Positions 1-17,642 of a DNA stretch of 64,000 nt are shown here, in pieces. Source of the stretch: a virus; the IMG/VR virus record IMGVR_UViG_3300027749_000051, positions 1-64,000 of that record; one strand, written 5' to 3'. How positions within the stretch are numbered: the stretch's first letter is position 1; each line of letters begins with the position of its first letter. The position numbers and the translations under genes are program-made. The notes under the pieces are model-generated. The model was not told the DNA's origin. It made no database searches and saw nothing but the letters and a program-made list of their open reading frames with translations.

Positions 1-743
1 GTTCTGGTTCATCAGGAAGTTCTGGTTCAAGTGGTTCTTCAGGAACTAGTGGAACATCTGGATCTTCTGGAACATCAGGAACAAGTGGTTCGTCAGGCAC
101 AAGTGGAACTTCTGGTTCTTCAGGAACTAGTGGAACATCTGGATCTTCAGGTTCAAGTGGTTCTTCAGGTACAAGCGGAAGTTCAGGATCGTCAGGAAGT
201 TCTGGTTCAAGTGGTTCTTCAGGTACAAGTGGAAGTTCTGGATCATCAGGTACAAGTGGAACGGCAACTATTAATAATAACGTAGATAATTATGTAATTA
301 CTGCAACAGGAACTGCCGGAACCATTCAAGGTGAAACAAATATGAGATTTGATGGATCTACCTTGAGTATTACAGGTGATACCACAATGACGGGAGCATT
401 AACCGCGGCATCAAAATCATTTGATATTCCACATCCAACGAAAGATGGATATAGATTAAGATATGGTGTATTGGAAGGTCCTGAACATGGAGTGTATATT
501 AGAGGTTTTGCGATTTCAAATGTTATCGAATTACCTGACTATTGGACGGAATTAGTTCATGAAGATAGTATTACAGTTCAATTAACATCGGTAGGAAAAT
601 CAGATATTGATTACGTTGTTAAAGTTTATGAAAATAAAATATATTTAGATTCATCAACAGGAGAAATCAGTAGTTACTTCTTTGTTCAAGCAGAACGTAA
701 AGACATTGAAAAGGTTCTATTGGAATATAAACCGATAAGGTAA
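1..743 (+). CDS. Collagen-like tail fibre protein, C-terminal part (5' end outside window)
   Basis: The open frame runs in from the left edge (codons in phase with position 3). The first ~85 residues are Gly-X-X triplets made almost only of Gly, Ser and Thr (GSSGSSGTSG pattern), like a collagen-type shaft. After a short linker (TATINNNVDNYVITATG) comes a ~130-residue globular end with 'SFDIPHPTKDGYRLRYG' and 'LEGPEHGVYIRG', a signature I know from C-terminal domains of phage fibre and structural proteins. Role: virion appendage, probably receptor contact. A terminator follows directly. The shaft is Ser/Thr-rich and the next gene is a glycosyltransferase, so it is a candidate glycosylation substrate (inference). 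Confidence 0.85.
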   Translation, partial: SGSSGSSGSSGSSGTSGTSGSSGTSGTSGSSGTSGTSGSSGTSGTSGSSGSSGSSGTSGSSGSSGSSGSSGSSGTSGSSGSSGTSGTATINNNVDNYVITATGTAGTIQGETNMRFDGSTLSITGDTTMTGALTAASKSFDIPHPTKDGYRLRYGVLEGPEHGVYIRGFAISNVIELPDYWTELVHEDSITVQLTSVGKSDIDYVVKVYENKIYLDSSTGEISSYFFVQAERKDIEKVLLEYKPIR

Positions 744-745
744 AT

Positions 746-775
746 AAAAAAGGGAGTCTTTAAACTCCCTTTTTT
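746..775 (+). terminator. Rho-independent terminator between convergent genes
   Basis: A 7-bp stem (AGGGAGT / ACTCCCT) with a 6-nt loop is flanked by A-rich and T-rich tracts. It can work in both directions, for the fibre gene and for the minus-strand glycosyltransferase that ends at 793. Confidence 0.85.
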
Positions 776-792
776 ATTATAATTTAAACATA

Positions 793-3072
793 TTATAGGG
801 GTAATGAGTTGAAAACTTGTGATGGGGTTATTGATTTTTGGCAAATATGTTGTCTTTCTGTTCCTTTATATACAGGACACCAATCCCAATCTCCAGGATC
901 AAAAGTTAATACAGGGTCATTCCAACATTTAATACAAACATCGTTTGATACCCTTGTAACATTATGTGTACATTCATGGTTATTCTCGCTAAATCCTGCA
1001 ATCATTACTGTCTTTTTACCTAAAGCCCAATTAACCCAAGATAACCCTGAACTTAATCCAATAAAGAAGTCCGCATGAAATAAACAATTCATAACTTCAT
1101 TCCAATCTTTTGTGGTGTTGTTACGAACTCCTTCTATATTATATTCCTTTAATGATAATATCATTACTTCATATCCAATATCTTTTAACATTTTTGATAA
1201 TGACGCCCAGTTTTCAAAAGTCCATTCTTTACATCCCGCTGTTGATTGTGGACCAAATACAACATATTTGTTCTTTATTGGCCTTTTTGTTGGTTTGAAA
1301 TTTAGTTTATAATTAATCTCATTATACTCTAATCCTAATATGTCTGTTGCTAATTTTTGAAGTGGGATAAGATTAACTTGATTTGGATATGAGTCAAATT
1401 TTCTCCATTTTTGATTATCGTCTTTAAACCATCCTAATCTATAAATAACATCGCAAGGTATGGATTGTCCTGGTAATATAAATGCTATATCTTTATAATC
1501 TTCAGACCCTTTAAACCATTCATTATGAAATGTACTTAAGATGACCTTACAATTTTTTTGTTTCATTAGTTCGATTGCGTAAGGAGCCCAAGCAATAGTG
1601 TCACCGACAGCTTTGGTTTCAAAAGATATAAGGACAGTTTTTCCTTCTAATGTAAAGGTGTCAATTATTTGACCATTAACTTTAATTATCCAGGGAATAA
1701 AATACTTTTTAGAACATGATGTCCACATATTATTTGATATGGTATCTGAGAATATAACATCATTCGTTTTACGATTAATGAACTCAACAAAATATTTTTG
1801 ATTATTGTCTCCCTTAATCTCAACTCTTGGACCATCCATATAGGTTATTATGAATTCATTCTCTTTTGTTGGTTTATCTTCTAACCACGACTTCTTATCT
1901 AAAAATTCGTTAATTGTATTGATACCAATTTCGGCAATATGTTCCCAACTAAATTCAGTTCTAATTTCTTCGGATTCTACTAATGCTTTTTGTTTGTATG
2001 ATTGATAGTTTGTTACCACCTCTCTCATTTTTTTTCCTAAATCTTCAAAATCAGGTTCATAATAATTTCCAACAGAGTCGTTAAAGTGACTATACGTACT
2101 TGCATCGACAGGTTTTTCTCCAATGATTTTAACAGGAATACCTCTACCTTCGGCAAACTCTAATTGACCTGAACAATTTGAATAAATTGATGGGGTACCA
2201 CAAGCCATTGCTTCGATAAGGGGTAAGTTCCATCCTTCTGACCTTGCGCATGAAACAAATACATCACAAGATTTTAATAGTTTAATGTAATCTTCTCTTG
2301 GAGGAAAATGTAAAACCTTAATTCTATCATCTTCTAATCCATAATACTTTAATCGTTCTTCAGTTGTTTTCATATTATCTCCTGAAAAAGGATTATCAAC
2401 TGAGACAATTAAATCGACAGGTTCATCTTTATCAAATGTATTTAGGAATGATTCAATAACTTCTTTAATTGATTTTCTATAATCCCATCTGCCAGCCAAG
2501 AAGAACTTCATTCTTCCATCTGATGTTAAAGGATGTGATACTTCTTCAGGGAAAAATGTATTAACATCTACTCCTTCAGGGACAACTTTAATTTTATCGG
2601 GGTTATAACCTTGTGCGATAGAACAATCTCTTTGCCATTTAGATGGAACCCACAGTTCGTCAAATTCTTTTAGTTTATTAAAATATTGTTCTGGTTGTAA
2701 TGTTGATTCCCATACATTGTATGCAATTTTTGGACCAAAATAATTATCATAAAATAAATGATGGTTTGTTTCACATAGTATAATATTAACATCTGGTGCA
2801 AATTCTTTTGATTTGTCCTGATACATTTTATGATTGTTTCTAGATTTGTCTGAATTCCATAAAACTTGTTCATAGAGTAATTTCTTATCTATCTCGTTAA
2901 AATATGACTCTTTGTTGTGTGGTTCGGGATTCATTCCTTCCCACCCATTTCCTACTGTGAAATTTCTAACTTTAATTTGTGCGTGTTTGGATAGATGTCT
3001 AAAAAAATCCCTTGTGTGTTGGTTATATCCTGTATTTCCAACATAAGAACCGTGTGCAAATATTTTTGGCAT
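793..3072 (-). CDS. Bifunctional glycosyltransferase: GT4 domain fused to TibC-like heptosyltransferase domain
   Basis: 759 aa, two halves. Residues ~1-395 form a GT-B glycosyltransferase of the GT4 type: 'EGVDVNTFFPEE' near 166 and the nucleotide-sugar E-x7-E site in 'SEGWNLPLIEAMACGTP' near 278-294. Residues ~405-759 resemble the autotransporter O-heptosyltransferases (TibC/AAH/BAHT family): an N-terminal beta accessory segment ('MDGPRVEIKG', 'SNNMW'), a GT9-like core and four cysteines (C713, C716, C732, C744) matching the iron finger described for TibC. Known members attach heptose to Ser in beta-solenoid adhesins. Here the target is unknown; adjacent Ser/Thr-rich virion proteins are plausible (inference). 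Transcribed divergently from the 3136 operon. The fusion is the odd part. Confidence 0.85.
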   Translation of the reverse strand: MPKIFAHGSYVGNTGYNQHTRDFFRHLSKHAQIKVRNFTVGNGWEGMNPEPHNKESYFNEIDKKLLYEQVLWNSDKSRNNHKMYQDKSKEFAPDVNIILCETNHHLFYDNYFGPKIAYNVWESTLQPEQYFNKLKEFDELWVPSKWQRDCSIAQGYNPDKIKVVPEGVDVNTFFPEEVSHPLTSDGRMKFFLAGRWDYRKSIKEVIESFLNTFDKDEPVDLIVSVDNPFSGDNMKTTEERLKYYGLEDDRIKVLHFPPREDYIKLLKSCDVFVSCARSEGWNLPLIEAMACGTPSIYSNCSGQLEFAEGRGIPVKIIGEKPVDASTYSHFNDSVGNYYEPDFEDLGKKMREVVTNYQSYKQKALVESEEIRTEFSWEHIAEIGINTINEFLDKKSWLEDKPTKENEFIITYMDGPRVEIKGDNNQKYFVEFINRKTNDVIFSDTISNNMWTSCSKKYFIPWIIKVNGQIIDTFTLEGKTVLISFETKAVGDTIAWAPYAIELMKQKNCKVILSTFHNEWFKGSEDYKDIAFILPGQSIPCDVIYRLGWFKDDNQKWRKFDSYPNQVNLIPLQKLATDILGLEYNEINYKLNFKPTKRPIKNKYVVFGPQSTAGCKEWTFENWASLSKMLKDIGYEVMILSLKEYNIEGVRNNTTKDWNEVMNCLFHADFFIGLSSGLSWVNWALGKKTVMIAGFSENNHECTHNVTRVSNDVCIKCWNDPVLTFDPGDWDWCPVYKGTERQHICQKSITPSQVFNSLPL

Positions 3073-3135: not shown

Positions 3136-4086
3136 ATGAAAGACCTAATATTAATTACAAATTATTCTCCAGATAGTAACCGGGAGCAATTATTAAGAGA
3201 TCTAGTTAATGATGTTAAAAATGAAAATTATGACATCATGATATCAACACATTCATTTGTTCCTAAAGATATATTTGATAATGTTAATTATGTTATATAT
3301 GATAAAGAAAATTTACTTTTAACTGATATTAATAGTAAAGTTGGATTTTTTTATAAAAATGATAAATTTACAATTAAAAGTACTGAAATATATGGTTTTA
3401 ATCATGCTGTTGCTGTTTTTAAATTACTTTCTTTAGGGTTAGTGAATGCTAAAAATTTGGGATATAAGAAGGTTCATCATTTTGAATATGATAGTAGAAT
3501 TTTAAAGACATTAGAAATTGAGAATAATTCTAAATTAATTGATATACATAGCGTTGTTTTTTATCTACCTACAAATTTACAATTTCCTAACTCACCAATA
3601 TCATTTAATTTAGATATGATATCGGAAGGATGGTTTGATGTTTCAAATAAGAAAATTATGTCATTTATGGAGGGAAATAATACTAAAATGTGTGAACAAT
3701 ATCAACAAACCCTTATAGATGAAATTGGAAATTATTATCAAAAAAAAGTATCTGATCTTGAATCAAATAATATATTAGTTGGAATTAATGTGGCTCCTAT
3801 TAAACATCCGTGGGTGGTATGTGTGTATAATAAAATTACAAATAAATTAATTTTATTTTGTTGGACTACAAATGAAATTAACGATATTGAAGTTAAATTA
3901 ATTGTTAATAATTCTAAATTATCTTATTATATTGTAAAACCTAATTGTTGGATAATAAGAGATATTGATGATATTGATAATATTGAAAATATTTTAATTA
4001 TAGTAAATAATGAAATAAGAAATTACTTAGATATGTCAAAGATAGACAAAGAATATTATAAACTTAAAAATCAAATTATAGAATAA
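3136..4086 (+). CDS. Putative GT-A-like glycosyltransferase
   Basis: 316 aa, first gene of the sugar operon. The start 'MKDLILITNYSPDSNREQLL', a mid-region 'GYKKVHHFEYDSRI' (acidic cluster where a GT-A enzyme carries its DxD metal site) and the overall alpha/beta pattern suggest a small GT-A fold enzyme. It resembles the gene at 8557 in layout: N-terminal strand with a list of times/events motif, 'FNHAVAVFKLLSLGL', then an acidic tyrosine-rich motif. No family can be named with certainty. The last ~110 residues look like a separate beta domain. Stop is 1 nt before the next start. Strongly AT-rich codon use. Confidence 0.55.
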   Translation: MKDLILITNYSPDSNREQLLRDLVNDVKNENYDIMISTHSFVPKDIFDNVNYVIYDKENLLLTDINSKVGFFYKNDKFTIKSTEIYGFNHAVAVFKLLSLGLVNAKNLGYKKVHHFEYDSRILKTLEIENNSKLIDIHSVVFYLPTNLQFPNSPISFNLDMISEGWFDVSNKKIMSFMEGNNTKMCEQYQQTLIDEIGNYYQKKVSDLESNNILVGINVAPIKHPWVVCVYNKITNKLILFCWTTNEINDIEVKLIVNNSKLSYYIVKPNCWIIRDIDDIDNIENILIIVNNEIRNYLDMSKIDKEYYKLKNQIIE

Positions 4087-4087
4087 A

Positions 4088-4732
4088 ATGGCACAAGGAG
4101 TACATAGAATCACTCAAGAGTTTGAGGAAGAACTGTCAAAATATACGGGAGCACCACATGCAATCGCATTGGATAATATGAGTAATGCCTTATTTTTGGC
4201 GTTATATTATGAAAAAAACATTAAAAAATCATTGGAGGATAATGTAATTGATTGTCCGTCTAAAACATATCCATCTGTTCCTTGTGAAATTATTCATGCG
4301 GGATTGAAGGTTAACTTTACACCTGTTGAAGGCAAAACAATTAAAGGGGCGTATACCCTATCACCATCCAATGTTGTTGATTCCGCATTAAGATTTACTG
4401 CCGATATGTATGTTCCTAAAACACATATGTGTTTATCATTTACGGGACCATATAAGACTCTAAAACTAAGTAAAGGTGGCGCAATCTTAACTGATGATTA
4501 CCAAGCGATGTTATGGTTTAAACGAGCAAGATTTAGTGGTAGGAGAGAATGTTCATATCATGATGATAATTTTGATATGTTAGGTTGGAATTTCTATATG
4601 ATGCCAGAATTATCTGCAAGAGGGATATTAATGATGAATCAATTTTATAATTTAGACGGGACAAAAAAACATAATGAAGATTTGGAATTGCCTTATCCTG
4701 ATTTATCAAAATATGAAATTTATAAAAAATGA
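4088..4732 (+). CDS. Short DegT/DnrJ/EryC1-type sugar aminotransferase
   Basis: 214 aa; the family is usually ~370 aa. 'FEEELSKYTGAPHAIALDN' matches the N-terminal substrate/PLP phosphate region, and 'SFTGPYKTLKLSKGGAILTD' (117-136) matches the PLP-lysine motif, with K123 as the likely Schiff-base lysine. 'RARFSGRR' and 'GWNFYMMPELSARG' correspond to the conserved region after it. The C-terminal small domain is almost missing. Known members aminate a keto group on a nucleotide sugar. With the PglD-like acetyltransferase at 5511 it could make an N-acetylated amino sugar. Whether the short form is active is unclear. Overlaps the next gene by 4 nt. Confidence 0.8.
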   Translation: MAQGVHRITQEFEEELSKYTGAPHAIALDNMSNALFLALYYEKNIKKSLEDNVIDCPSKTYPSVPCEIIHAGLKVNFTPVEGKTIKGAYTLSPSNVVDSALRFTADMYVPKTHMCLSFTGPYKTLKLSKGGAILTDDYQAMLWFKRARFSGRRECSYHDDNFDMLGWNFYMMPELSARGILMMNQFYNLDGTKKHNEDLELPYPDLSKYEIYKK

Positions 4733-5505
4733 AAATAACTCAAACATTAGTCGCACCAGCTGTTAGTTTTTTTAAAAAAAATTTTATTTCAAGATATTCT
4801 TTTAAAGAATATTGTGATATTAACAAACCGTGTGTGTTTTTAGGCGGGAGAGAATTATCTACTCAAATACAAAATCATAAATCGTATAAATTTGTATTTC
4901 TCACAACACCAAATGATTTACCAAATTTTGATATAATAACTAATACCGAAAATTTGTTTATTATTAATATATCTGATGATGTTAGATTAAATTTAAAAAT
5001 ACCTGATAATGTTAAGTGTAAAAATTTGACAATAGAACTTAAAGATTATTCATTATTTCAATCTAATATTTTAGGGGATAAAATATATGCATATACTGGA
5101 TTTAAAAATGGGTGGGGTAATGAATGGAATGTTGAAAAATTAAAACAACTCCAAAAAAAGATTGATTATGAAATAATAACAACAAATCATTTAAATCTTA
5201 ATGATTATTATGACATAAATTATTTAAAAGAAAATTATTACGACAAATCTTTTCTTAATTTAAATTTATCAAATGGTAATGGAATGTCGACAGTTATAGA
5301 GCTTGGATTAATGGGTAGAAAAACAATATTGAATGAAAATTTTTATAAATATCCATGTATTTTAAATTATAAAAATGATGAAGATTTGATTAATTTAATT
5401 AATTATGAGAGTAGTAAAATAGGGATGTTACAGCCATCAATAAATTGTCATACAATAAATGATGAATGGTTAGATATTGATTTTTGGGTTAAAATAGATA
5501 AATAA
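4729..5505 (+). CDS. Unknown protein, possibly reduced GT-B glycosyltransferase
   Basis: 258 aa; ATGA overlap with the aminotransferase shows translational coupling. I do not recognise the family firmly. The segment 'NLSNGNGMSTVIELGLMGRKTI' (about 180-200) looks like the nucleotide-sugar pocket of GT-B enzymes (Ser-Gly ... E-x-G-x-M-G-x-P/K), and the N-terminal half alternates strands and helices ('KPCVFLGGRELS', 'YKFVFLTTPNDLP'). Very AT-rich. Its position inside the operon supports a sugar-related role. Confidence 0.5.
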   Translation: MKITQTLVAPAVSFFKKNFISRYSFKEYCDINKPCVFLGGRELSTQIQNHKSYKFVFLTTPNDLPNFDIITNTENLFIINISDDVRLNLKIPDNVKCKNLTIELKDYSLFQSNILGDKIYAYTGFKNGWGNEWNVEKLKQLQKKIDYEIITTNHLNLNDYYDINYLKENYYDKSFLNLNLSNGNGMSTVIELGLMGRKTILNENFYKYPCILNYKNDEDLINLINYESSKIGMLQPSINCHTINDEWLDIDFWVKIDK

Positions 5506-5510
5506 TTAAA

Positions 5511-6092
5511 ATGAAAATATCATTATTCGGATATGGTGGACATGCAAGAGAAGTTGCACAACAGATTAATAAATCAATTACATTTTTTGTTGATGATGAA
5601 TATGTTAATGAATTTACTAGACCAATAAGTGAATTTGATCCTGAAGAATATGCTATTATGATAGCAGTTGCGGACTGTGAAGAAAGAAGAAATATTGTTT
5701 TAACGTTACCTAAAGAAACTAATTATTTTACTTTTATACATCCGACCGCTCTGATAATGGATACAAATATAAAAATAGGTGAAGGGAGTTTTATTGGGGC
5801 ATACTCAATTTTAACAACTAATATATTATTAGGAAATCACGCAATCCTGAATCGAGGAAATCATATTGGGCATGATTCAAAGATTGGAGATTATTTTAGT
5901 GCAATGCCGGGATCAATTGTTTCTGGAAATGTTACAATTGGAGATAATGTTTATATGGGAACCAATTCATCAGTTAAAGAAAAAATACAAATTTGCTCAG
6001 ATGTTAAAATCGGTTCAAACGCCACAGTAATTAAAGATATAACAATAAATGGAACTTATGTTGGAGTTCCTAGTCGACTTAAAACTAAATGA
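5511..6092 (+). CDS. NeuD/PglD-family acyltransferase (left-handed beta-helix)
   Basis: 193 aa, normal length for the family. N-terminal Rossmann-like part with 'GYGGHAREVAQQI' (7-19) binds the sugar nucleotide. From ~85 on there are hexapeptide repeats ('IKIGEGSFIGAYSIL', 'VTIGDNVYMGTNS') forming the beta-helix that binds acetyl-CoA. 'NHIGHDSKIGDYF' holds the catalytic-base His position of PglD. Ends in the usual 'GTYVGVPSRL'. In Pgl-type pathways this enzyme N-acetylates the amine made by a DegT aminotransferase, which here lies two genes upstream. A 4,6-dehydratase to complete the route is not in the window. Confidence 0.88.
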   Translation: MKISLFGYGGHAREVAQQINKSITFFVDDEYVNEFTRPISEFDPEEYAIMIAVADCEERRNIVLTLPKETNYFTFIHPTALIMDTNIKIGEGSFIGAYSILTTNILLGNHAILNRGNHIGHDSKIGDYFSAMPGSIVSGNVTIGDNVYMGTNSSVKEKIQICSDVKIGSNATVIKDITINGTYVGVPSRLKTK

Positions 6093-7966
6093 TAAAACAA
6101 ATTGCTTTAGTGGAAGTATGGTTAGGTAAGATACCTGACTATTTTCAATACCATATAGAAACAATAGGGTCATTGTCGTGTGTTGATTTTTACTTTTTTA
6201 CCGACGATAAGAATTATGATTTTTCAAAGATTACTCATAAAAATTTTCATTTAAATTACATTAGCGAAGGTGAGTTTTTGGATAGGTTTAATAGGGTCTC
6301 TAAAGTTAAGATCGATAGAATAACTCATCCAAAAAAAATAATAGATTTCAAGTTATCATATTTTGAAATGTTTTCTGATTATGTTAACTCTTATCGTTAT
6401 GTGGGAATATATGATATTGATACAATGTTTGGAGATATGAATCAAACATTGTTGGATTGTATTAATGACTATGATTTTATATCTATTGGGGATGAGGTTT
6501 TTCATAATAGATTAAGTGGTCCTTTATTGATAGTTCGGAATACTTCAGAGTTTCATGATTTAATGAAAACAGACCGATATTACGAGACATTATTAATGGA
6601 TGACATATATGGTTACGGAGAACAAGAACTATCTGTAATCGCCCATAATAATTATAAGGTTAAGATATTACATTCAATGAATACTGATACAAAGAATGGA
6701 GGTAAAACGACCTATGATGTCTGTTGGAAAGGTGGAAAATTATATTCAGGCGATGAAGAAAAATTAATTTATCATTTCTATCGTAAAGGACATACAACCT
6801 TTCAAAAAGTTGGTAACCAGATTTATGCCAGATATGATAAAAAATTTCTAAATGACTTCTTTTGGGTTTTTGGGTTTACGGAGAATTATTCGGAGGCAGT
6901 ACCACATCTGATGGATTCGATTAATAAATATTCAAATAGAAAGTGTATTATATACACAATAAATTTTGACTATAATATTCCTCAAAAGTTTTTAACTAGT
7001 GAACAGTTTATCTTTAGAAGAATTGAAATTGAGGAAGGTCATAAAGATTATAGAGGTAGAGATGAAAATATTATTAGTTGTAAGCCAAAGTTGATGATTG
7101 ACGTGGTTACTCAATATCCTGATGATAGATTCATATTCATAGATAGTGACATTTATTTAACAACATCTGCTGATGATTTATGTAAACACTTTAATGAGCT
7201 AACTACTTATCCATTAATTAACTCTCATATTCATGATGTCGTTTATCATTCAGGAATAATTGAAGGAGAAAAATGGACAAGTACCGCTCATATTTTAGCA
7301 AAGAAAATTGATGTTGATATTTGCGTATTCCCAAGAAGAAAAACAAATGTAATGCTTTTTGATAACCGGTCAAAATGGTTTTTTGAGGAACAGATTGATG
7401 TGTATGAAAAGTATAAAAATACAGAAAAGGGAATATTTGCATTACACGATGAAGATTCTGCAAATGTTATCTTATCAAAGTATAATCTATATGGATGTAT
7501 ACCTTTATCTGATATTGAGGATTGTAGTGATATTAAATTAGAAACAATTACAGATTTAAATAATCCATTTCATATGACACAGATTTCTCCATCTGTTAGA
7601 TTACCACAAACAGTTAATGATATTGCGGTCTTTCATGGAATGAAAGATATTATCAAATTCCAAGAAATCGAAGAGAATTATGGAAAAAATGTTTTAGATT
7701 GTGAGGAAATTTTAACATATTATAAGGATAATACAATTTTTTTTGAGAAAAATTCATTCTTATCGACAAAGACTTTAAGTGGTAAATTTGATTTTATTGT
7801 AAAAAATAAAGATGGTGTTATTTTACAACAATTATTAAATCAATCTTTAATGAAGTATTGGATTTTTTATATTTCTAATGTTCATTTGGATAAAGGAGAT
7901 TATATTATTGAAATAATAAAAACAAGTGATAAACAAAAAGTTTATAATAATTTAATTAGTGTATGA
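6089..7966 (+). CDS. Protein with two GT-A glycosyltransferase domains
   Basis: 625 aa. Domain 1 (~1-250) has 'YVGIYDIDTMFGD' with the DxD pair D109/D111 and fits the DUF6625-type GT-A enzymes. Domain 2 (~280-520) has 'DRFIFIDSDIYL' with D352/D354, a second metal/nucleotide site, and an H-D pair in 'FALHDEDSAN' and 'AVFHGMKD' near the end of the fold. The last ~70 residues form a beta tail. Two transferase centres in one chain suggest two consecutive sugar additions. Overlaps the previous gene by 4 nt (ATGA) and the next by 4 nt. Confidence 0.75.
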   Translation: MIKQIALVEVWLGKIPDYFQYHIETIGSLSCVDFYFFTDDKNYDFSKITHKNFHLNYISEGEFLDRFNRVSKVKIDRITHPKKIIDFKLSYFEMFSDYVNSYRYVGIYDIDTMFGDMNQTLLDCINDYDFISIGDEVFHNRLSGPLLIVRNTSEFHDLMKTDRYYETLLMDDIYGYGEQELSVIAHNNYKVKILHSMNTDTKNGGKTTYDVCWKGGKLYSGDEEKLIYHFYRKGHTTFQKVGNQIYARYDKKFLNDFFWVFGFTENYSEAVPHLMDSINKYSNRKCIIYTINFDYNIPQKFLTSEQFIFRRIEIEEGHKDYRGRDENIISCKPKLMIDVVTQYPDDRFIFIDSDIYLTTSADDLCKHFNELTTYPLINSHIHDVVYHSGIIEGEKWTSTAHILAKKIDVDICVFPRRKTNVMLFDNRSKWFFEEQIDVYEKYKNTEKGIFALHDEDSANVILSKYNLYGCIPLSDIEDCSDIKLETITDLNNPFHMTQISPSVRLPQTVNDIAVFHGMKDIIKFQEIEENYGKNVLDCEEILTYYKDNTIFFEKNSFLSTKTLSGKFDFIVKNKDGVILQQLLNQSLMKYWIFYISNVHLDKGDYIIEIIKTSDKQKVYNNLISV

Positions 7967-8556
7967 GTAGAGAAATAATCATGAGAAAATTTCAGGAATT
8001 GTCAAATATTCCTTCTGATATAAATGAACATCTGGAAACATTTAGAAGATATACTGAAGAATGTGATATTGTTATTGAGATGGGTGTGAGAAAAATAGTT
8101 AGCACTTGGGCATTTTTGGCGGGAAATCCGAAAAAATTAATTAGTTTGGATTTATATAATCCAACACATTTTGGGGGTAATTTACAAGAAGTGTATGATG
8201 CGGTATCAACAACGGATATTGATTTTTCTTTTGTTGAACAAGATTCTCTAACATATAATATTGATACCTGTGATTTATTATTTTTAGATACATGGCATGA
8301 TTTTTTACAATTAAAAAAAGAACTAACAAGACATCATAATCAAGTTAAAAAATATATTATTTTCCATGATACCGTGAGTTATGGTTATTCTGATGAAGAT
8401 TTAAATATTTCAGGTCTTGAAAATGAAATTGAAACGAATTTACCAAAAGGATTGTGTGCTGCCATTGAAGAATTTTTATTCCATAATAAAAACTGGATAA
8501 TGTGGGAGAAAAAACCAAATAATAATGGGATAACAGTTTTGAAAAAAATTTATTAA
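7963..8556 (+). CDS. Class I SAM-dependent methyltransferase-like protein
   Basis: 197 aa. 'CDIVIEMGVRKIVSTWAFLAG' corresponds to motif I (E-x-G-x-x), 'LISLDLYNP' to the acidic end of beta-2, and 'DTCDLLFLDTWHDFLQLKKEL' with 'YIIFHDTVSYG' to the later core; this is typical of the Methyltransf_24/cephalosporin-hydroxylase-like group. Motif I lacks the usual second and third glycines, so SAM binding may be altered. Probable role is O-methylation of a sugar. ATG overlaps the previous stop (ATGAG). Confidence 0.7.
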   Translation: MSREIIMRKFQELSNIPSDINEHLETFRRYTEECDIVIEMGVRKIVSTWAFLAGNPKKLISLDLYNPTHFGGNLQEVYDAVSTTDIDFSFVEQDSLTYNIDTCDLLFLDTWHDFLQLKKELTRHHNQVKKYIIFHDTVSYGYSDEDLNISGLENEIETNLPKGLCAAIEEFLFHNKNWIMWEKKPNNNGITVLKKIY

Positions 8557-9483
8557 ATGAAAAAAATCTCATTAATAAGTAGTTTTTGTGACACACAGGA
8601 AAAATTAGATATTCTTGAAAAGAATATTAAAATTATTAAATCACATAATATTGATGTTATAGTTATTAGCCCATTTTATTTGTCAAAAAATATCGTTGAA
8701 TTGTGTGATTATTTTTTTATGACTAAAGATAATCCTGTATTTGAATGGCCTGAACGGGCGATGTTTTATTGGCAGATGTTTTCAACAGACACTAAGAACT
8801 ATAGAGTCACAACAACATATCCTGATTATGGATATGCTGGATTATCGCAGGTTAAACAATTAAGTGAGATTGCACTTAATTTAGATTATGAACAATTTTA
8901 TCATATGATTTATGATTTAAAAATTGATGATAATGTTATTGATGGATTTAATTCAGATAAAATTTGCTCCGTTTATCCGTCCAAGAGAGAAGAAATAATA
9001 TGGACAGTTGGTTTACACTATATGATTTTTAATAAAGAAAATTTAAAAAATTTCACATCGTATATAACCAAAGAGAATTATTTAGATACTAAGGATTTAG
9101 ACGCTTTTGCTTGGTTACATAGTCATCAAAAAAATATTAATTATGCAATTGAACCAATACCTGTTGAAGATGAAATATACTATTATCAAAATCATGACTT
9201 TCTTAATTACTCGCCAATTGAAAATTTAAAATTTTTTATTGATAAAAATTATGAGATAGATACAAATGTTAAATTATTTTTCTATGGTAATGAGGAATTA
9301 AAAAATATTAAATTAACTGTGGGTGATGTTGAATCTATTCATACTGTTAATGATTGTTATATAATTGACTTAGGGTTTGATAAATTTAATATCCAAGAAG
9401 TGAAATTAGAATATGATTCAATAACTTACGATTTAACTAAAATAATTCATAAAATTAAACATAACGGACTATACGAGATATGA
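8557..9483 (+). CDS. Putative GT-A-like glycosyltransferase, relative of the 3136 gene
   Basis: 308 aa. Starts directly after the previous stop (0 nt gap). N-terminus 'MKKISLISSFCDTQEKLDIL' and 'NIDVIVISPF' resemble the first strands of a small GT-A fold; 'YEQFYHMIYDLKID' sits where the 3136 protein has 'YKKVHHFEYDSRI', probably the metal site. A C-terminal beta segment follows ~residue 220. The two proteins look like diverged paralogues with an acceptor-specific tail. Family not certain. Confidence 0.5.
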   Translation: MKKISLISSFCDTQEKLDILEKNIKIIKSHNIDVIVISPFYLSKNIVELCDYFFMTKDNPVFEWPERAMFYWQMFSTDTKNYRVTTTYPDYGYAGLSQVKQLSEIALNLDYEQFYHMIYDLKIDDNVIDGFNSDKICSVYPSKREEIIWTVGLHYMIFNKENLKNFTSYITKENYLDTKDLDAFAWLHSHQKNINYAIEPIPVEDEIYYYQNHDFLNYSPIENLKFFIDKNYEIDTNVKLFFYGNEELKNIKLTVGDVESIHTVNDCYIIDLGFDKFNIQEVKLEYDSITYDLTKIIHKIKHNGLYEI

Positions 9484-10025
9484 TAGAAAATATTCATTTA
9501 TGGCACGCAGACAGGGGAACTTATTTTGACCGAAATGTTAACATAATTTCTTGGAGTGACCAATACAAAATACATGTCGGGAAATATTGTTCGATTGGAA
9601 GAGATTGTAATTTTTTCTTACATGCAAATCATAGGCCAGATTGGATAACAACATCCTCACAATTATGGGGACCAGTTACACCTGAAACTGCTGATTTACA
9701 TATGGGTATGGGACATCCTTCTTGTAAGGGTGATATTATTGTTGGTAATGATGTGTGGATTGGTGCAAAATCTACAATAATGTCTGGCGTTAAAATTGGA
9801 GACGGAGCAATTATTGCTGCAGGAGCATTAGTAACTAAAGATGTATTACCTTATTCTATTGTTGGAGGAAACCCTGCGAAACATTTAAAGTTTAGATTTA
9901 TGGAAACACAAATTGAGTCATTATTGAAAATCGCTTGGTGGAATTGGACAGAAGATAGGATTAAAACAGAAGCCATGAATATGTGGTCAGATAAAATAGA
10001 TGAATTTATTGATAAACATTTATGA
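9480..10025 (+). CDS. CatB/xenobiotic-type hexapeptide O-acetyltransferase
   Basis: 181 aa. Hexapeptide repeats from ~30 ('IHVGKYCSIGRDCNFFLHANHRP'), the family's conserved loop with the catalytic His ('HANHRPDW'), and 'DIIVGNDVWIGAKSTIMSGV' plus 'VGGNPAKHLKFRF' are all diagnostic for LbH acetyltransferases of the CatB/VatD group. Likely acetylates a sugar hydroxyl using acetyl-CoA. Overlaps its neighbours by 4 nt on both sides, so it is translated as part of the operon. Confidence 0.9.
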   Translation: MIENIHLWHADRGTYFDRNVNIISWSDQYKIHVGKYCSIGRDCNFFLHANHRPDWITTSSQLWGPVTPETADLHMGMGHPSCKGDIIVGNDVWIGAKSTIMSGVKIGDGAIIAAGALVTKDVLPYSIVGGNPAKHLKFRFMETQIESLLKIAWWNWTEDRIKTEAMNMWSDKIDEFIDKHL

Positions 10026-10864
10026 TTAAAATAGATTATTCCGAAGGAAATATAAAAATGAATACCAGTGATTTAAGAGGGATATTCAAATCAGAACAAT
10101 TACCTTTAAAGTTCAAAATAAAAAAAGTTGTATCTAAAGAGGTGATATGGGAAACAAATTTAAATAGTAATATGTGGGCAATATTTCCATCAAATGAGAT
10201 CAATGATGTTGTTGTTGAGGATGCACAAGGAAATTTTATTTATCAATATTATTGGGATGTATTACAACATGGGTCGGTATTTTATAAATCATTGTGGATG
10301 TATTGTAAGGGACTAATTAATGATGGAAAAAAACCAAAAGGATTAGTTGTTGGAACACATGATGGAGAGTTCGGTGAATGGGTCCCATTGGTTAAAAATT
10401 TTATGTCGGATATGTTATTGGTTGAGGGGAGTGAAAAACAATTCAATAAATTATCCCAAAACTTTAAGGGAAAACAAGGTTTGTCATTTTTAAATGAGTT
10501 AATAACAACAGATGGGTCTGAAGTTGAATTTTTTGAAGGTGGCGCAGGATATACAAACTCAATTGTTAAACGGGTTATTGATCATTGGGAAACAGAAGAG
10601 ATACATTCATCGAAAAGAAAATCGACCAGCATAAATAATTTAATTAAAAATAATCTTGGTGGTAAAGTTGATTGGATACACTTAGATGTTGAAGGACTTG
10701 ATGCTAAATTATTAATGTCTTTAAACGAAGAATATATTCCTAATTTTATAATATTCGAAGACTTCAATCTATTAGTGGATGAAAATAAAGAAATAACTGA
10801 GTGGTTTAGTTTACGAGGATTTAACCTACATTCTGAGGGTGGGATTTGTATGGCAAAAAAATGA
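10022..10864 (+). CDS. FkbM-family methyltransferase with accessory beta domain
   Basis: 280 aa, last gene of the sugar operon. Motif I 'GLVVGTHDGEFGEW' (107-120) and 'DWIHLDVEGLDAKLL' (217-231) identify an FkbM O-methyltransferase. The first ~80 residues are an extra beta domain with 'WETNLNSNMWAIFP', which resembles the accessory segment in the middle of the 793-3072 heptosyltransferase ('FSDTISNNMWTSCS'). The shared module suggests both act on the same acceptor or complex (inference). Confidence 0.82.
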   Translation: MIKIDYSEGNIKMNTSDLRGIFKSEQLPLKFKIKKVVSKEVIWETNLNSNMWAIFPSNEINDVVVEDAQGNFIYQYYWDVLQHGSVFYKSLWMYCKGLINDGKKPKGLVVGTHDGEFGEWVPLVKNFMSDMLLVEGSEKQFNKLSQNFKGKQGLSFLNELITTDGSEVEFFEGGAGYTNSIVKRVIDHWETEEIHSSKRKSTSINNLIKNNLGGKVDWIHLDVEGLDAKLLMSLNEEYIPNFIIFEDFNLLVDENKEITEWFSLRGFNLHSEGGICMAKK

Positions 10865-11199: not shown

Positions 11200-14004
11200 A
11201 TGTATAGTATAAGTTGGTATTTTGATAGTGGTGGTGTTGGTGATTCTCTTGTAGTAGAACAAAATGGGATTGTTGTTCTTAATTGGACAGCAACAGGTTC
11301 AGGAGTACTAACAGGATGGAACCCTGGAGATACTATTGACATAACGGTTAATCCTGGTAATAGAAATTATTCTCATCTTATATATAACGACTATACGGAG
11401 ACTCAATTCGAGCCAACAGCCTGTTATTTTGGAGGAACGGTGAGTGGAGATGGAAATATTTCTGCGGCTACTGATAATAACGACTATCTTCCAACTCCAA
11501 CTCCAACTCCAACAAATGCTGCATCACCAACACAAACTCCGACCAATACTGCGACACCGACTATTACTCCAACAAATACTACAACACCGACTATTACTCC
11601 AAGTGCCGGCAACCTTCTTCAATTCCAAGATTGTGCGAATAATCTAAACATATTTAGATTTGCTGATGTAAATTTATCTTTAACTTTAGGTGAAACCTAT
11701 TTGATTACAAATAGCAATGAATTTTCTGGATGTGCTACGGTTGTTAGTGATACAGGAGTAGGGTTAATTTATAATGGAGCGGGTGTATATTTTACTTTAA
11801 CGTCAGGGTGTGCAGACAATATGTGTCCACAAAATAGTAGTATTGCTGCTGAATTATATAAATGTTCTGATGGGTCAATATTTTATGGACTTGTCCAACA
11901 AGACACTGCATTTGTTGGTGCTGCCTATGTCTATAATGATGAGTGTTATAGTTTTGTTGAGTTTTCGGGACCAGGTGGGCCTGATTTAGGAAACCCTGAT
12001 TATAATGATTGTCTCCGTTGTAATGCTGTTCCAACGCCAACACCTAATCCTACGCCAACAGTTACACCAACGGTATCGAGTTCTCCTATACCTTGTGCAT
12101 ATAGTTCTTTTTGTTTTTATACTTCATTACCATCATTATCAGGATATAACGGTAACTATTCTATTGCAGGAACTTATGGGTCGATGTTTTATTATACTGG
12201 TGACAGTATTGATGATTCTGTTATTTATTATACAGGGGATTATTGGTGTTTAAGTGACACATATACACCGGGAGGAAGTTGTATTTTAAGGGGAGCATCT
12301 CCTTGTTATTCAGCATGTCCTGATATTTCAGTTAATGATTTTACGGGAGGTATTTGTCCGACACCAACACCTACTCCGGTAGATTGTAATACTTTTGATT
12401 TTAACGCCTATTTTGATTGTGATTGGGAACCTCTTCCAACACCAAGTGTAAGTATAGATTGCGCAGATGCTGCATTTGATTATTATGTTAATACATTAAC
12501 ACCAACTCCTACTCCGACTAATGGTTCTTGTGGTAGTGTTTCAGTCTCATTTGGTATGACTGCATATACACCAAGTATTACTGCTACTCCTACACCAACA
12601 AGTACAAGTTCAATTATACCTGTACCTGTGGCAGGACAAGTTACTTTTGAAATGTTAAATGAGACCTTTAATTGCGTTTCAGTAAAAGTCTTAACAAATT
12701 GTGAGACAGGTGTTGAATACTATGTATGTGGAGGATTGGTGTATAACAATACACCAATTGTTGTTGGTATTACAATGTTAATGTTAATTAATGGTCAAAC
12801 AGTTTGTGTGACTTATACAAGAAATGATAAAAACTTATCATCAAATTCTCTTATTGGGGAAATAACACAAATCTACGCAGCTTGTGGTTCATGTTCGACA
12901 GTTCCTACACCAACACCAACGCCAACAAATACTACTACTCCAACAATGACTCCGACTACAACACCAACAAATACTATGACACCAACTCCATCTGCAACTG
13001 TTGGTACAATAGCATTAACACCAACGCCAACAAATACTACCACACCAACTATGACTCCAACACCATCAGTAACTCCGAACTATGTTTATGTTTATCAGAG
13101 TTGTGCACCGATTTCTCCTAATGTTAATCCAACTCAAGTTGTTCAAACACAACCAGTTTCATTTAACGCATATCCTGAAAATGTCTTTAAAGATAGTTCA
13201 GGAAATTGTTGGAGATATGTTGGTAGATATTCAAGTAACTATATTGCACCATCAGGAATTGTTGTTATAACTTATAGTGGTAATTACTTTGCAAGTGCGC
13301 CTAATTACATATACTCATCGTGTATTATTTGTCAGGGTGGAGCTCGTCCAGTGGTAGATGTTCCAGAAGTAGTTACAGGAGTATTCACAGATGTGACTGT
13401 GTTTAGTGCGACATTATATGGTGCGGTAGTTAGTGATCATAACTCACCTGTAACAGAGTGGGGAATTCTTATTGGTATATCACCAGAATTAACATATGGG
13501 GCTGCGGGTGTTACCTATATAAGTGCTCCGAGTCCTGGAATTGGAACATATTCTGTTGACGCAACAGGACTTGTTGAAGGTGTTACCTATTATTATAGGG
13601 CGACAGCCGTTAACAGTGTTGGTAGGGGATATGGGTTTACTGTTGGTTCATTTACGACACTTAATTTAAATAGTTGGGCAACTATTAATGTTAATAATAA
13701 CAGTTCGTCTTATAGTGACAATATGTTTAACATTCTCGTTGGTGGACAAACAGTGATGGGAATTCCGGCAACAATACATGGCGGAGAAACGGCTATTGGG
13801 TCAACAATTTATGTTGGATCGACAACTCTTACTCTTGGATATATTACATTGTACACCTTTGACGGACAAATTACAATCACTGATAATTCAACTAATCTTG
13901 TGATTTATAGTAGGACAATATCAAGAAATGGGACTATCAATACTAATCTAACCATTCCATATCCTCAGGGTATAACAATAACAATGTCGGATATTCCACA
14001 ATAA
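11200..14004 (+). CDS. Large Pro/Thr-repeat surface protein with FN3-like domain
   Basis: 934 aa. Residues 1-95 are a beta module ('YSISWYFDSGGVGDSL') that recurs at the C-terminus of the 21190 protein. Then Cys-containing globular segments alternate with PT linkers ([11 protein letters not shown] type) near residues 100-130, 278-292, 395, 440-470 and 568-625. A fibronectin-III-like domain lies at ~715-810 ('VTVFSATLYGAVVSDHNSPVTEWGI', 'GVTYYYRATAVNS'), followed by a ~110-residue beta domain. No signal peptide, so it is a virion protein, not a secreted one. Likely adhesin or fibre decoration. PT linkers are typical O-glycosylation sites elsewhere; here that is inference. Confidence 0.75.
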   Translation: MYSISWYFDSGGVGDSLVVEQNGIVVLNWTATGSGVLTGWNPGDTIDITVNPGNRNYSHLIYNDYTETQFEPTACYFGGTVSGDGNISAATDNNDYLPTPTPTPTNAASPTQTPTNTATPTITPTNTTTPTITPSAGNLLQFQDCANNLNIFRFADVNLSLTLGETYLITNSNEFSGCATVVSDTGVGLIYNGAGVYFTLTSGCADNMCPQNSSIAAELYKCSDGSIFYGLVQQDTAFVGAAYVYNDECYSFVEFSGPGGPDLGNPDYNDCLRCNAVPTPTPNPTPTVTPTVSSSPIPCAYSSFCFYTSLPSLSGYNGNYSIAGTYGSMFYYTGDSIDDSVIYYTGDYWCLSDTYTPGGSCILRGASPCYSACPDISVNDFTGGICPTPTPTPVDCNTFDFNAYFDCDWEPLPTPSVSIDCADAAFDYYVNTLTPTPTPTNGSCGSVSVSFGMTAYTPSITATPTPTSTSSIIPVPVAGQVTFEMLNETFNCVSVKVLTNCETGVEYYVCGGLVYNNTPIVVGITMLMLINGQTVCVTYTRNDKNLSSNSLIGEITQIYAACGSCSTVPTPTPTPTNTTTPTMTPTTTPTNTMTPTPSATVGTIALTPTPTNTTTPTMTPTPSVTPNYVYVYQSCAPISPNVNPTQVVQTQPVSFNAYPENVFKDSSGNCWRYVGRYSSNYIAPSGIVVITYSGNYFASAPNYIYSSCIICQGGARPVVDVPEVVTGVFTDVTVFSATLYGAVVSDHNSPVTEWGILIGISPELTYGAAGVTYISAPSPGIGTYSVDATGLVEGVTYYYRATAVNSVGRGYGFTVGSFTTLNLNSWATINVNNNSSSYSDNMFNILVGGQTVMGIPATIHGGETAIGSTIYVGSTTLTLGYITLYTFDGQITITDNSTNLVIYSRTISRNGTINTNLTIPYPQGITITMSDIPQ

Positions 14005-14007
14005 TAG

Positions 14008-14014
14008 TATTTAT
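14008..14014 (+). promoter_or_regulatory. TATTTAT box
   Basis: TATTTAT, 5 nt before the ATG at 14020, immediately after the stop of the 934-aa gene. Confidence 0.6.
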
Positions 14015-14019
14015 CTAAA

Positions 14020-14226
14020 ATGACAACTCAAGTAACGATAACATCAGTAACTGCAAATACTCCAGTGGATATATTCTATTGTGATTCTATGGGGGCGAGC
14101 TGTGTTAATGTCGCAACTGTCTCAACATTTCCGTATGTTTTTTTAGTCCCATCTCCATATTCTGAAGAAAATTTTATTATTAAGATAGCGGATACTCAAG
14201 GGTGTGTTGTTGAAGAACAGGTATAG
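14020..14226 (+). CDS. Small surface-protein module, paralogue of the 20948 gene
   Basis: 68 aa, beta-rich, with 'TPVDIFYCDSMGASCVNVATVSTFPYVFLVP' and a C-terminal 'IIKIADTQGCVVEEQ'. The 73-aa protein at 20948 has the same layout ('SPYNIYVCQPNGSGCYFIATTSVIPYQFDVPPP ... LKVIDANNC'), with Cys at matching positions. Probably a small virion or fibre-associated domain. Function unknown. Confidence 0.65.
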   Translation: MTTQVTITSVTANTPVDIFYCDSMGASCVNVATVSTFPYVFLVPSPYSEENFIIKIADTQGCVVEEQV

Positions 14227-14316
14227 TCCCTATGTTACCTTGTTGAGAACTTGTCACTAAGTAATTTCCTTCTTTCAAATAAATTTTCGTAATCTGAAAA
14301 TAAGTGTTATTTCATA

Positions 14317-14323
14317 TATTTAT
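14317..14323 (+). promoter_or_regulatory. TATTTAT box
   Basis: TATTTAT 16 nt before the ATG at 14340. The 113-nt gap before this gene holds nothing else I can recognise. Confidence 0.6.
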
Positions 14324-14339
14324 GATTAAATAGAACTTT

Positions 14340-15335
14340 ATGGCAACGACTAGAGCATTTGCATATAATATAAGCTCACCAATTTTGGGAACTCAACAAG
14401 TTGGGGATTTGGCAATTGGAGTACCAACAAGTGGATTTGCATCAACTGGATTACCTTGGTGGGAAGGCCCTGATGAGGAGTTAGGGTATGTCATTGCAGA
14501 GCCTGTTTCAGGGAATACACAACCAACACCAATATCAGGAGTTACAGCCTCTTTGGGATTCTATAGGTCAGATTTTCTAACCGATAATTCTTTTGTTGAA
14601 CTTGCAAATGTTGTTTCAGGACAAAATTTTACTGGAGCAACCGAAGCAAGTATATGGTTAACAAATCACGGATATTGGAATTCATATCCTGCTCCTGTTT
14701 TGTATTTGGATGCTGGTGATATTAATAGTTATCCTGGCACAGGAACTGTTTGGACTGATTTAATTGGAGGAAAAGTATTTGACTTAATAAATGGACCAGG
14801 TTATGATCCAGGAAATGGAGGTAAGATTTACTTTTACGCCGCAGGTGGACAATATGCTAATTGTTCAACAAGTTTACCGTCATTACCGACATTTACAACA
14901 TCTGTTTGGCATTATTGGGATGGTACTAATACAGGATCATTACCTTGTCTATTATCTGAAGTGTATATTGGAGGTGGAATTAACTTCCTTCTTGGTGCTC
15001 CTGGAGGTGTTGTTGCTCAAGGAGGGTATTTCAATGGCAATTTTCAACTCTCACCTCAATTTAGTTTAACACCAAATACTTGGTATAATATTGTTGTTAG
15101 TTGTGATTCGAGTCAAGTTGTTAACATTTATTTAAACAATACATTAATTAGTTCAACATCTACAACAGGTCCTCAACCATATTCAAGTGGGGCAGGAATA
15201 AACCTAATGAAGAGATGGGATGGTTCTGAGAATTGGGGTGGTTACTTATCAACCGTTGGAATATATGATAAAGCATTAACATCAGGACAAATTTCTGGAA
15301 TTTATAACACAACTAAATCAAGATACGGATTGTAA
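14340..15335 (+). CDS. Surface protein: shared N-terminal module plus LamG/ConA-like lectin domain
   Basis: 331 aa. Residues 1-118 form a module ('MATTRAFAYN', 'QVGDLAIGV', 'WWEGPDEELGYVIA', '[15 protein letters not shown]', 'WLTNHGYWNS') found in three neighbouring genes. Residues ~120-331 look like a concanavalin A-like/LamG fold: 'PVLYLDAGDINSYPGTGTVWTDLIGG', 'TWYNIVVSCDSSQVVNIYLNN' and the closing 'STVGIYDKALTSGQISGIYN'. LamG domains bind glycans, so a receptor- or surface-binding role is likely. No signal peptide. 5 nt before the next paralogue. Confidence 0.78.
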   Translation: MATTRAFAYNISSPILGTQQVGDLAIGVPTSGFASTGLPWWEGPDEELGYVIAEPVSGNTQPTPISGVTASLGFYRSDFLTDNSFVELANVVSGQNFTGATEASIWLTNHGYWNSYPAPVLYLDAGDINSYPGTGTVWTDLIGGKVFDLINGPGYDPGNGGKIYFYAAGGQYANCSTSLPSLPTFTTSVWHYWDGTNTGSLPCLLSEVYIGGGINFLLGAPGGVVAQGGYFNGNFQLSPQFSLTPNTWYNIVVSCDSSQVVNIYLNNTLISSTSTTGPQPYSSGAGINLMKRWDGSENWGGYLSTVGIYDKALTSGQISGIYNTTKSRYGL

Positions 15336-15340
15336 TATAA

Positions 15341-16981
15341 ATGGCAACAACAAGACCTTTTGCATATAACCCAATACCACCAAATTCTCCAATTTCGGGA
15401 ACAACGCAACTTGGTGACATAGCAATTGGTGTTTTAACGGAGCCATATACTAGTAATTATGGAGGTGTTGTATGGTGGGATGGTCCTGATGAAGATTTAG
15501 GTTATGTTATTGCGATTCCTATTAGTGGGAACACACAACCAACACCAATATCTGGTGTTACGGCATCTGTTGCTTTTTATGGTACTGAAATTTTACCAAA
15601 TCCGTTTAGTGAATCGTCATTTCTTTATATAACAAATAGGGCGTTCAAACAGAATTTCACTAATGGTAATGACGCGTCAACTTGGTTGACAAATAATGGG
15701 TATTGGAACACATGGAATTCAATAACGCCAACTCCGACACCAACTCCAACATCTACGCCTATTCCAATATATGTACCAACTTGTTCACTCATATTTAATT
15801 CAATTGACGCTGGAATATACGGTTATGACTCGTCAACTAACACAAGTACTTTCTTATATAATTCAGGATTTGTAAGTAGTGACATTGCAAATACTCAAAC
15901 TAAATTATGGATATATAATTCAAGTATACATGAATATGATATTACATTAAGTCCTTGGTCTATAACCTTTAATAGGACTATTGATTTATCGGTTGGGTTA
16001 GGCGCTGGTTTGGGGGCAATCAATAATACAACTTTAATTAGTACTGATGGCGGGTCAGATATTATCACATTAGATATAACAACATCTGCTGCATCGGCAA
16101 CAGTTATTGGAAGTTTACCTCCAGGTAGAATTGTTTCAGGAGATATTTTACAAACAACAACAACACCTCTAAAAATAATTGTAACAAATCAAGGTGGTGA
16201 TGGTTATTTCTTATCTCAATATGTCGTGGTGGGAGGACTTGCGGTATTTGAAACTGAGATTAATATAGGGGCATATTCAACATCTGCGTACGGTTTATAC
16301 GAGGATAATAGTTTATTGTATTTTGTTGATGGATATACTGGTCAAATATTTAATGTTGATTTAAATCCTCCATACGACATTACTGGTACAACTGGATACA
16401 CAGCTTATGTGGTATATGGTGCGTCCCAAGTACCAAGTTGTTTAAATGTAAGTTTAATTTTACCAACACCAACTCCGACACCGACTCAAACTGTGACGCC
16501 GACTAATACTGAAACTTCTACACCCACTGTTACTCCTACCAATACTCAAACGCCAACAAATACTACAACCCCTACCAATACTGCAACTCCGACTAATACT
16601 GCAACCCCAACTAATACTATTACACCTACCAATACTGAGACTCCGACTAATACTCCGACCAATACTCAAACGCCAACTAACACTGTTACTCCTACCAATA
16701 CTGCGACTCCGACTAATACCGCAACTCCAACGGTAACACCAACTAATACTATTACGCCAACTAATACTTCAACATCAACTCAAACACCCACTCCAAGTAT
16801 TACGGCAAGTCAAACTGTAACCCCAACACCTACTCAAACTCCGACTAATACTCTTACACCTACTAACACCACAACACCTACTCAAACACCAACTCAAACA
16901 CCCCAATTCTTCTTATTATTTGAGGATAGTTCAATTGCTACGGCAGAAAATAACAATAATATTGAAATAGATATAATATAA
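15341..16981 (+). CDS. Surface protein: shared N-terminal module, beta-propeller-like middle, long PT tail
   Basis: 546 aa. Residues 1-127 are the same module as in the 14340 and 17663 proteins. A short PT linker (~128-140) leads to a ~230-residue domain with repeating strand pairs ('[27 protein letters not shown]', '[22 protein letters not shown]') that resembles WD/Kelch-type propeller blades (inference). Residues ~375-520 are a long PTNTxTPT repeat, ending in a ~25-residue acidic/asparagine tail. No transmembrane segment. Confidence 0.75.
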
Positions 16982-16995
16982 AAAAATAGATTAAA

Positions 16996-17493
16996 ATGGC
17001 AAATACAAAAATTAGTGCATTACCACTATACACAGGAGATACCACGGGTGCTTATCTTGTTATGGATAATAGTGGACTTACTCAAACTTATAAAGTTACT
17101 AAAGAGACCTTATTGGGTGGAAGTCCAATTGTACCAGTAACAGGAAGTTGGACTTTATCAACAGGTGCAAATACTGTTAGTTTTACAGTTACTGCAGGTC
17201 AATCATATGTAATGTGGGTAAATGGAAATATTCCAAACGGTATTGTTAATTGGAATGCAACATTAACACTATCAAACTCAAACGTACCTGTAATAGGTGT
17301 ACAATATGGTTGGTATTATGTTGCAGGAAACGCTTTGGTGTTAACATCAATACCAAGTCAGATAGTTGGGACTGCGGGAACTATTAGTACCTCATCACCA
17401 GCGGTTTCAAATTCAAACACCTTTACATTTGGTATAACAAACAACAGTGGTACATCTCAAGTAGTTTACTACGGATATACTAAAGTAAGTTAA
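16996..17493 (+). CDS. Small virion/fibre protein
   Basis: 165 aa. 'MANTKISALPLYTGDTTGAYLVMDNSGLTQTYKVTKETLL' is an N-terminal attachment-type sequence that I know from many phage tail-fibre and appendage proteins. The rest is a beta sandwich-like, glycine-poor domain rich in Ser/Thr/Asn. Probably a fibre tip or decoration. A +1 frame directly after its stop encodes a lectin-like C-terminal fragment (17489-17590). Confidence 0.7.
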   Translation: MANTKISALPLYTGDTTGAYLVMDNSGLTQTYKVTKETLLGGSPIVPVTGSWTLSTGANTVSFTVTAGQSYVMWVNGNIPNGIVNWNATLTLSNSNVPVIGVQYGWYYVAGNALVLTSIPSQIVGTAGTISTSSPAVSNSNTFTFGITNNSGTSQVVYYGYTKVS

Positions 17494-17590
17494 TTTGAGA
17501 GTAGTATCTTACTATATGGGATTCGGTGCGGGAACAGGAGGTTCTACTGATAATCAAGAATTACTTTCTTGGAGTTTAACCTTCACCTAA
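17489..17590 (+). pseudogene. Remnant of an L-type lectin domain C-terminus
   Basis: A 33-codon open stretch, in a different frame from the preceding gene, reads '...VSYYMGFGAGTGGSTDNQ' then 'ELLSWSLTFT' and stops. Legume-/bacterial L-type lectin domains end with exactly this kind of sequence (VGFSA.TGG....H.vLSW.F). There is no room for the rest of the domain (~200 aa), so this is a scrap left by recombination. An in-frame ATG at 17516 would give only 24 aa. A terminator follows at 17606. Confidence 0.55.
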
Positions 17591-17605
17591 TTAGATTACT
17601 AATAA

Positions 17606-17632
17606 AAAGAAGACCTAAAGTCTTCTTTTTTT
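17606..17632 (+). terminator. Rho-independent terminator
   Basis: A 9-bp stem (AAAGAAGAC / GTCTTCTTT), 5-nt loop, then a T run. It closes the transcript of the 16996 gene and the lectin remnant. Confidence 0.85.
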
Positions 17633-17642
17633 GATACCAATG

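Follow-up and report, generated by a model that had tools for sequence, protein, structure and literature searches.

A phage-encoded fusion of GT4 and TibC-like glycosyltransferase modules and its candidate Gly-Ser/Thr repeat acceptors

TibC is a proven protein O-heptosyltransferase in which D110 acts as catalytic base, T226 and K230 contact the donor phosphate, W305 contacts the sugar O4 and four cysteines serve as iron ligands; R286, which is highly conserved in the bacterial autotransporter heptosyltransferases (BAHT) such as TibC (PDB 4rap, 4rb4) and AAH, contacts the adenine N1 of ADP-heptose (PMC4358343). TibC also contains a thumb, a β-hairpin with a hydrophobic tip (Phe265-Val266), which is needed for the active dodecamer. 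Enzymes of the GT4 family (PF00534, phrog_2170), characterized by a GT-B fold and an E-x7-E motif, are common among phage glycosyltransferases. In T4-like aquatic phages (pelagimyophages), glycosyltransferases encoded next to fibres have been read as host LPS modifiers (PMC7029224). Glycans on a phage's own virion are described for mycobacteriophages, where the capsid and the tail-tube C-termini are modified (Freeman et al. 2023, as cited in PMC12619734). In the literature, with subscription journals mostly uncovered, we found neither a GT4/TibC-like fusion described nor (GTS)n arrays named as targets of glycosylation.

A two-module glycosyltransferase in a phage genome

The DNA analysed here (the window) comprises the first 64 kb of an IMG/VR virus record of 125,154 bases, which is incomplete. 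The gene thus belongs to a virus, and an origin from a bacterium was rejected on the basis of this record. An earlier note, made from the DNA alone, had proposed that it encodes a GT4 enzyme joined to a TibC-like heptosyltransferase with the four-Cys finger of autotransporter heptosyltransferases. The fusion itself is borne out by a single ORF of 759 amino acids without internal stops, in which both domains were matched (Table 1). Phage genes in its vicinity encode an SbcC/SbcD pair, a primase, a sigma factor and collagen-like tail fibres.

In the N-terminal half, PF00534 (Glycos_transf_1) matches residues 185-306 (E 4e-17) with 62.6 bits against a gathering cut-off of 26.4 bits, and both glutamates of the E-x7-E motif are kept, in agreement with the proposed GT4 enzyme. 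Here, the module makes up the front half of a chain with two enzymes.

The C-terminal half was compared with TIGR04414 (hepto_Aah_TibC), the NCBIfam equivalog for autotransporter O-heptosyltransferase, as the earlier note had advised. Residues 411-756 score 215.1 bits, above the NCBI curated cut-off of 200, whereas the model for LPS heptosyltransferase I reaches only 24.5 bits on the same protein. Pfam Glyco_transf_9 matches residues 596-706 (E 8e-10), and the top sequence match in the PDB is TibC (4rap, E 8e-39, residues 405-754). An AlphaFold model built from 20 family members has a mean pLDDT of 86.7 and a pTM of 0.58, and because of the latter the relative placement of the two halves is uncertain. 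The superposition on TibC, likewise advised, was successful: Foldseek ranked TibC first, with a TM score of 0.82 by target length, followed by GT4 structures. The N-terminal β-barrel model PF21129 (TibC_1st) scores 20.0 bits, which is under its cut-off of 27 bits, but the alignment of the AlphaFold model with TibC spans 385 columns and thus nearly the full TibC length.

The finger cysteines align to TibC Cys339, Cys342, Cys358 and Cys370 with identical spacing, exactly the layout that had been claimed. Since 112 out of 114 different viral domains keep all four and the two-domain protein is present in 55 viral loci, this layout is not a chance occurrence. The 55 relatives were retrieved by scanning IMG/VR; most are full length, and most share 46-78% identity. 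When the TibC-like half alone served as query, at least 597 viral loci were detected, of which 80 were kept; a GT4 half is also present in 126 of the 150 retrieved ORFs with a TibC-like half, which are mostly viral and in some cases bacterial. A first genome scan with the full-length protein as query returned no relatives, and an alignment of the TibC half was needed.

Table 1. Positions of the described features; plain numbers refer to the window, those preceded by an L number to the respective related locus
Feature	Position	Strand	Evidence or remark
Putative fibre/virion protein with G-[ST]-S array (about 3-262), truncated at record start	3..743	+	Sequence; candidate acceptor
Inverted repeat and T run between two convergent genes, likely shared terminator	745..778	.	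Read from sequence
GT4/TibC-like fusion glycosyltransferase, 759 aa	793..3072	-	Intact ORF; 55 viral relatives, most full length
GT4 half, residues 1-392	1897..3072	-	PF00534 62.6 bits; phrog_2170 114 bits; GT4 structures in fold search
E-x7-E motif, E279-E287	2212..2238	-	Invariant columns in 20-sequence alignment
TibC-like half, residues 405-759	796..1860	-	TIGR04414 215 bits; 4rap E 8e-39; TM 0.82
D491, equivalent of TibC D110	1600..1602	-	Asp in 111/111 viral domains covering the site
T611 to K615, equivalents of TibC T226 and K230	1228..1242	-	T in 113/114, K in 114/114
V660, replacing TibC R286 (adenine contact lost)	1093..1095	-	Arg in 3/114 viral domains
W679, equivalent of TibC W305	1036..1038	-	W in 114/114 viral domains
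Four-Cys finger C713, C716, C732, C744	841..936	-	C-x2-C-x15-C-x11-C
Glycan-gene island: DegT-type aminotransferase, PglD-like and other hexapeptide acetyltransferases, DUF6625 protein, FkbM-like methyltransferase	3136..10864	+	Pfam
Large proteins with Thr-Pro repeats	11200-23310		PTPTNT... repeats
Proteins with T-[KR]-W-C-T-[AS] motif	29665-30555, 49440-50765, 61313-63055		Common to three phage proteins
Full fusions lacking all four finger Cys	L040:4269-6587, L063:997-3345		Catalytic Asp, Lys, Trp kept
Larger phage chains	L261:7203-12965 (-), L258:6607-10974, L262:10343-14044, L259:7512-11150, L260:7096-10194		
Short TibC-like paralogues	L006:3385-4272, L077:11053-11949, L100:9605-10501		Four Cys, different spacing

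Active site and sugar donor

Alignment of the 114 viral domains to TibC revealed that the catalytic aspartate and the Thr, Lys and Trp contacts are shared (Table 1). In contrast, the arginine that contacts adenine is replaced in the fusion and in almost all viral domains, and it is found in 2 of 11 bacterial relatives. The thumb tip is also missing from the viral domains, with gaps at F265 in 106 and at V266 in 102 of 114, although these counts depend on the alignment. Because of both losses, the earlier label "heptosyltransferase" was abandoned, and the module is named TibC-like rather than filed as a BAHT heptosyltransferase, despite its pass with the NCBI model. Both the donor and the assembly may therefore differ from those of TibC. 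A quick tree built from 32 domains, which has modest support, intermixes phage and bacterial modules and groups TibC with the two bacterial relatives that keep Arg286.

A heptose donor is still possible for the fusion, even though the adenine contact is not conserved. Neither SIS_2 (GmhA-type) nor RfaE-C genes were found in the 125-kb record, which may be a fragment, and ADP-heptose would thus probably be supplied by the host. A phage-encoded heptose pathway was considered and rejected, because the SIS_2 model matched W03 only and RfaE-C-like matches in four other records all stayed below the cut-off. These RfaE-C-like nucleotidyltransferases, which belong to the related phages L143, L144, L145 and L146, might make a sugar donor.

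The loss of R286 and of the thumb tip would also be in line with a TibC-like half that only binds or docks Gly-repeat fibres as a scaffold, leaving the relevant transfer to GT4, and so would the two full fusions in which all four finger cysteines are lost (L040 and L063). Yet the donor-site Asp, Lys and Trp are invariant even in these two proteins, which is unexpected if the enzyme is dead, and we consider a pure scaffold function unlikely. The same two fusions offer a natural test of the role of the finger.

Repeat proteins beside the gene in phages and bacteria

The neighbour of the BAHT genes encodes an autotransporter β-helix, whereas the phage fusion lies beside a gene for a Gly-Ser/Thr repeat protein, which is truncated in the window. 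The C-terminal part of this protein matches phrog_17490 and phrog_28536, both of unknown function, and 23 strict array matches are present in the record. Among the related phages, Gly-X-X arrays were detected at no more than 8 kb from the fusion in 34 of the 38 loci for which most of the ±8 kb region was available, but in none of 45 control loci surrounding the SbcC gene in this group of phages. When the loci are clustered at 80% identity, such an array is nearby in 23 of the 24 clusters. Strict G-[ST]-[ST] arrays occur in 16 of 18 phage records with the module and in none of 12 without it (Fisher p 1e-6); one record lacking the module has a Gly-X-X array that does not follow the strict Ser/Thr pattern. 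Adjustment for kinship leaves three well-supported independent contrasts, of which approx. 2.9 are concordant over random pairings and none is opposite, a number too small for significance.

In L055, the fibre adjoining the fusion matches both Pfam Collagen and Peptidase_S74 and thus combines the two domain types of collagen-like phage tail fibres with S74 chaperone. Different from such fibres, many of the present arrays consist of G-[ST]-S almost exclusively and contain no proline. Nearly pure Gly-Ser/Thr arrays are nearby in about half of the 24 phage clusters, and the remaining clusters have collagen-like arrays with little Ser/Thr. This is the most serious weak point of the proposed link, because the acceptor may be located elsewhere.

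The window also contains a series of large, mucin-like proteins with Thr-Pro repeats that adjoin the glycan genes and are possible further glycosylation targets. Three other phage proteins share a T-[KR]-W-C-T-[AS] motif and apparently constitute a multicopy family.

Bacterial relatives were retrieved by the TibC half only and hence blind to their neighbours. None of 11 bacterial or MAG loci, with the virus-like L063 set aside, carries a GT4 half, which agrees with the claim of the earlier note that the bacterial proteins lack it. They are stand-alone except for L061, which has an N-terminal methyltransferase, and L062, which has another N-terminal part and may be viral because a fibre-like gene is present on its contig. 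The methanotroph ORFs are 376-459 amino acids long, apart from one fragment of 234 amino acids. G-[ST]-S repeat proteins are encoded at a distance of 20-1100 bp from the stand-alone gene in seven loci and of 5 kb in an eighth, including loci from Methylobacter, Methylomicrobium, gammaproteobacterial, burkholderial and other genomes, and several of these proteins have secretion- or lipoprotein-like N-termini. Six of the genomes with these loci contain a strict array; judged by coordinates, all strict matches fall into the TibC-like locus in five of them and are located on another contig in the sixth.

Eight of 151 methanotroph genomes contain a close relative (>380 bits), and Ser/Thr arrays are found in six of these eight but in only two of the other 143 (p 5e-8). 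For this count, Glyco_transf_9-level matches of approx. 19-37 bits were not regarded as relatives, and pattern matches in G113 and G181 were dropped because they do not read as Ser/Thr arrays and have stop codons in frame. By a looser criterion, a repeat protein directly adjoins the gene in seven of the eight genomes. Four distant methanotroph relatives (190-294 bits) have no repeat-protein neighbour within their short flanks. The small proteins beside the stand-alone methanotroph genes (L269-L273, L275, L276) have secretion-like N-termini and G-T-S-type arrays, and no function was found for them.

These bacterial pairs bear on two other explanations. First, another protein could be the true acceptor, such as the Thr-Pro-rich proteins of the window or a surface protein of the host, and the Gly arrays would be close only because they share a fibre region with the fusion. 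The mucin-like character and closeness of the Thr-Pro repeats, which are near the fusion in a few relatives, as well as the phage clusters without Ser/Thr-rich Gly arrays, are consistent with this idea. It is nevertheless rather unlikely, because the bacterial pairs have no fibre region and still place the module beside G-[ST]-S proteins. Secondly, and as the main rival, the fusion could modify host LPS or capsule to block superinfection, with the GT9-like half adding heptose to a glycolipid and GT4 extending it. The Glyco_transf_9 fold would allow this, the adjoining glycan-gene island would suit it, and aquatic myophages commonly have LPS-related genes in their host-recognition regions (PMC7029224). 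The much lower score of the LPS heptosyltransferase I model, the TibC-type finger, the superposition over the full TibC length and the stand-alone bacterial genes next to repeat proteins whose N-termini resemble secretion or lipoprotein segments all argue against such a function, which we therefore judge unlikely.

A candidate assembly line for fibre glycans

The fusion is one member of a wider set of multidomain proteins. Chains of 1033-1921 amino acids in related phages combine GT4 and TibC-like modules with FkbM or other methyltransferases, a DXD-type glycosyltransferase or a polysaccharide pyruvyltransferase, although in L260 Pfam shows GT4 and GT9 only. The cultured Microcystis phage Mel-JY01 encodes a version of 1226 amino acids that is annotated as 'methyltransferase FkbM', and among the related phages a PIG-L deacetylase also occurs at the C-terminus of GT4 and TibC-like modules. 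The additional tailoring domains fit a glycan-building protein. For several genes of the glycan-gene island in the window, Pfam support is weak or absent.

In several phages, a second TibC-like paralogue of approx. 296-300 amino acids without the N-terminal barrel is encoded directly downstream of the fusion. A preliminary pattern count had listed these tandem paralogues as finger-less, but their sequences keep four cysteines with other spacing.

We propose, with a probability of about 0.6, that the fusion is a two-module phage protein O-glycosyltransferase that attaches sugar to Gly-Ser/Thr arrays of fibre proteins and then extends it; the acceptor, the order of steps and the display on the virion are inferred. 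The TibC-like module would take the first sugar from a nucleotide-sugar and attach it to Ser/Thr within Gly-Ser/Thr-Ser arrays of one or more fibre proteins of the phage itself, with D491 as predicted base, T611 and K615 holding the phosphate of the donor and the metal finger with its four Cys presumably serving the structure of the module. The GT4 module would add a second sugar, probably before the chain is released, and neighbouring genes may tailor the glycan. The earlier suggestion that a single chain adds a first sugar to Ser and then extends it is thus plausible, with the arrays as candidate acceptor, and the phage probably sugar-coats its own tail fibres. This proposal is supported by the TIGR04414 score relative to that of the LPS model, the TibC fold match, the near-invariant catalytic and finger residues and the proximity of arrays, and the bacterial array pairs provide an independent replicate. 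It resembles mycobacteriophage virion glycosylation, as cited in PMC12619734, in that phage glycans would be placed on the phage's own structural proteins. The likeness concerns the kind of target, although the sites given in that account are the capsid and the tail-tube C-termini instead of candidate fibre arrays.

More tentatively, and with some doubt on our side, TibC-like enzymes and Gly-Ser/Thr-Ser arrays could represent a general, so far undescribed protein O-glycosylation system of bacteria and many aquatic phages, in which the phages use single-chain assembly lines to cover their tail fibres with a glycan that they specify themselves, the donor possibly not being ADP-heptose.

The Gly-Ser/Thr-Ser arrays offer a testable acceptor and the methanotroph gene pairs a phage-free test bed, while single-chain glycan assembly enzymes are of interest for glycoprotein engineering. 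If the proposed function is correct, many environmental phages would sugar their own fibres with a type of enzyme familiar from the adhesins of bacteria, and both host recognition and fibre stability would be affected. This would also provide an alternative reading for glycosyltransferases in phage host-recognition regions, which have so far been taken as modifiers of host LPS.
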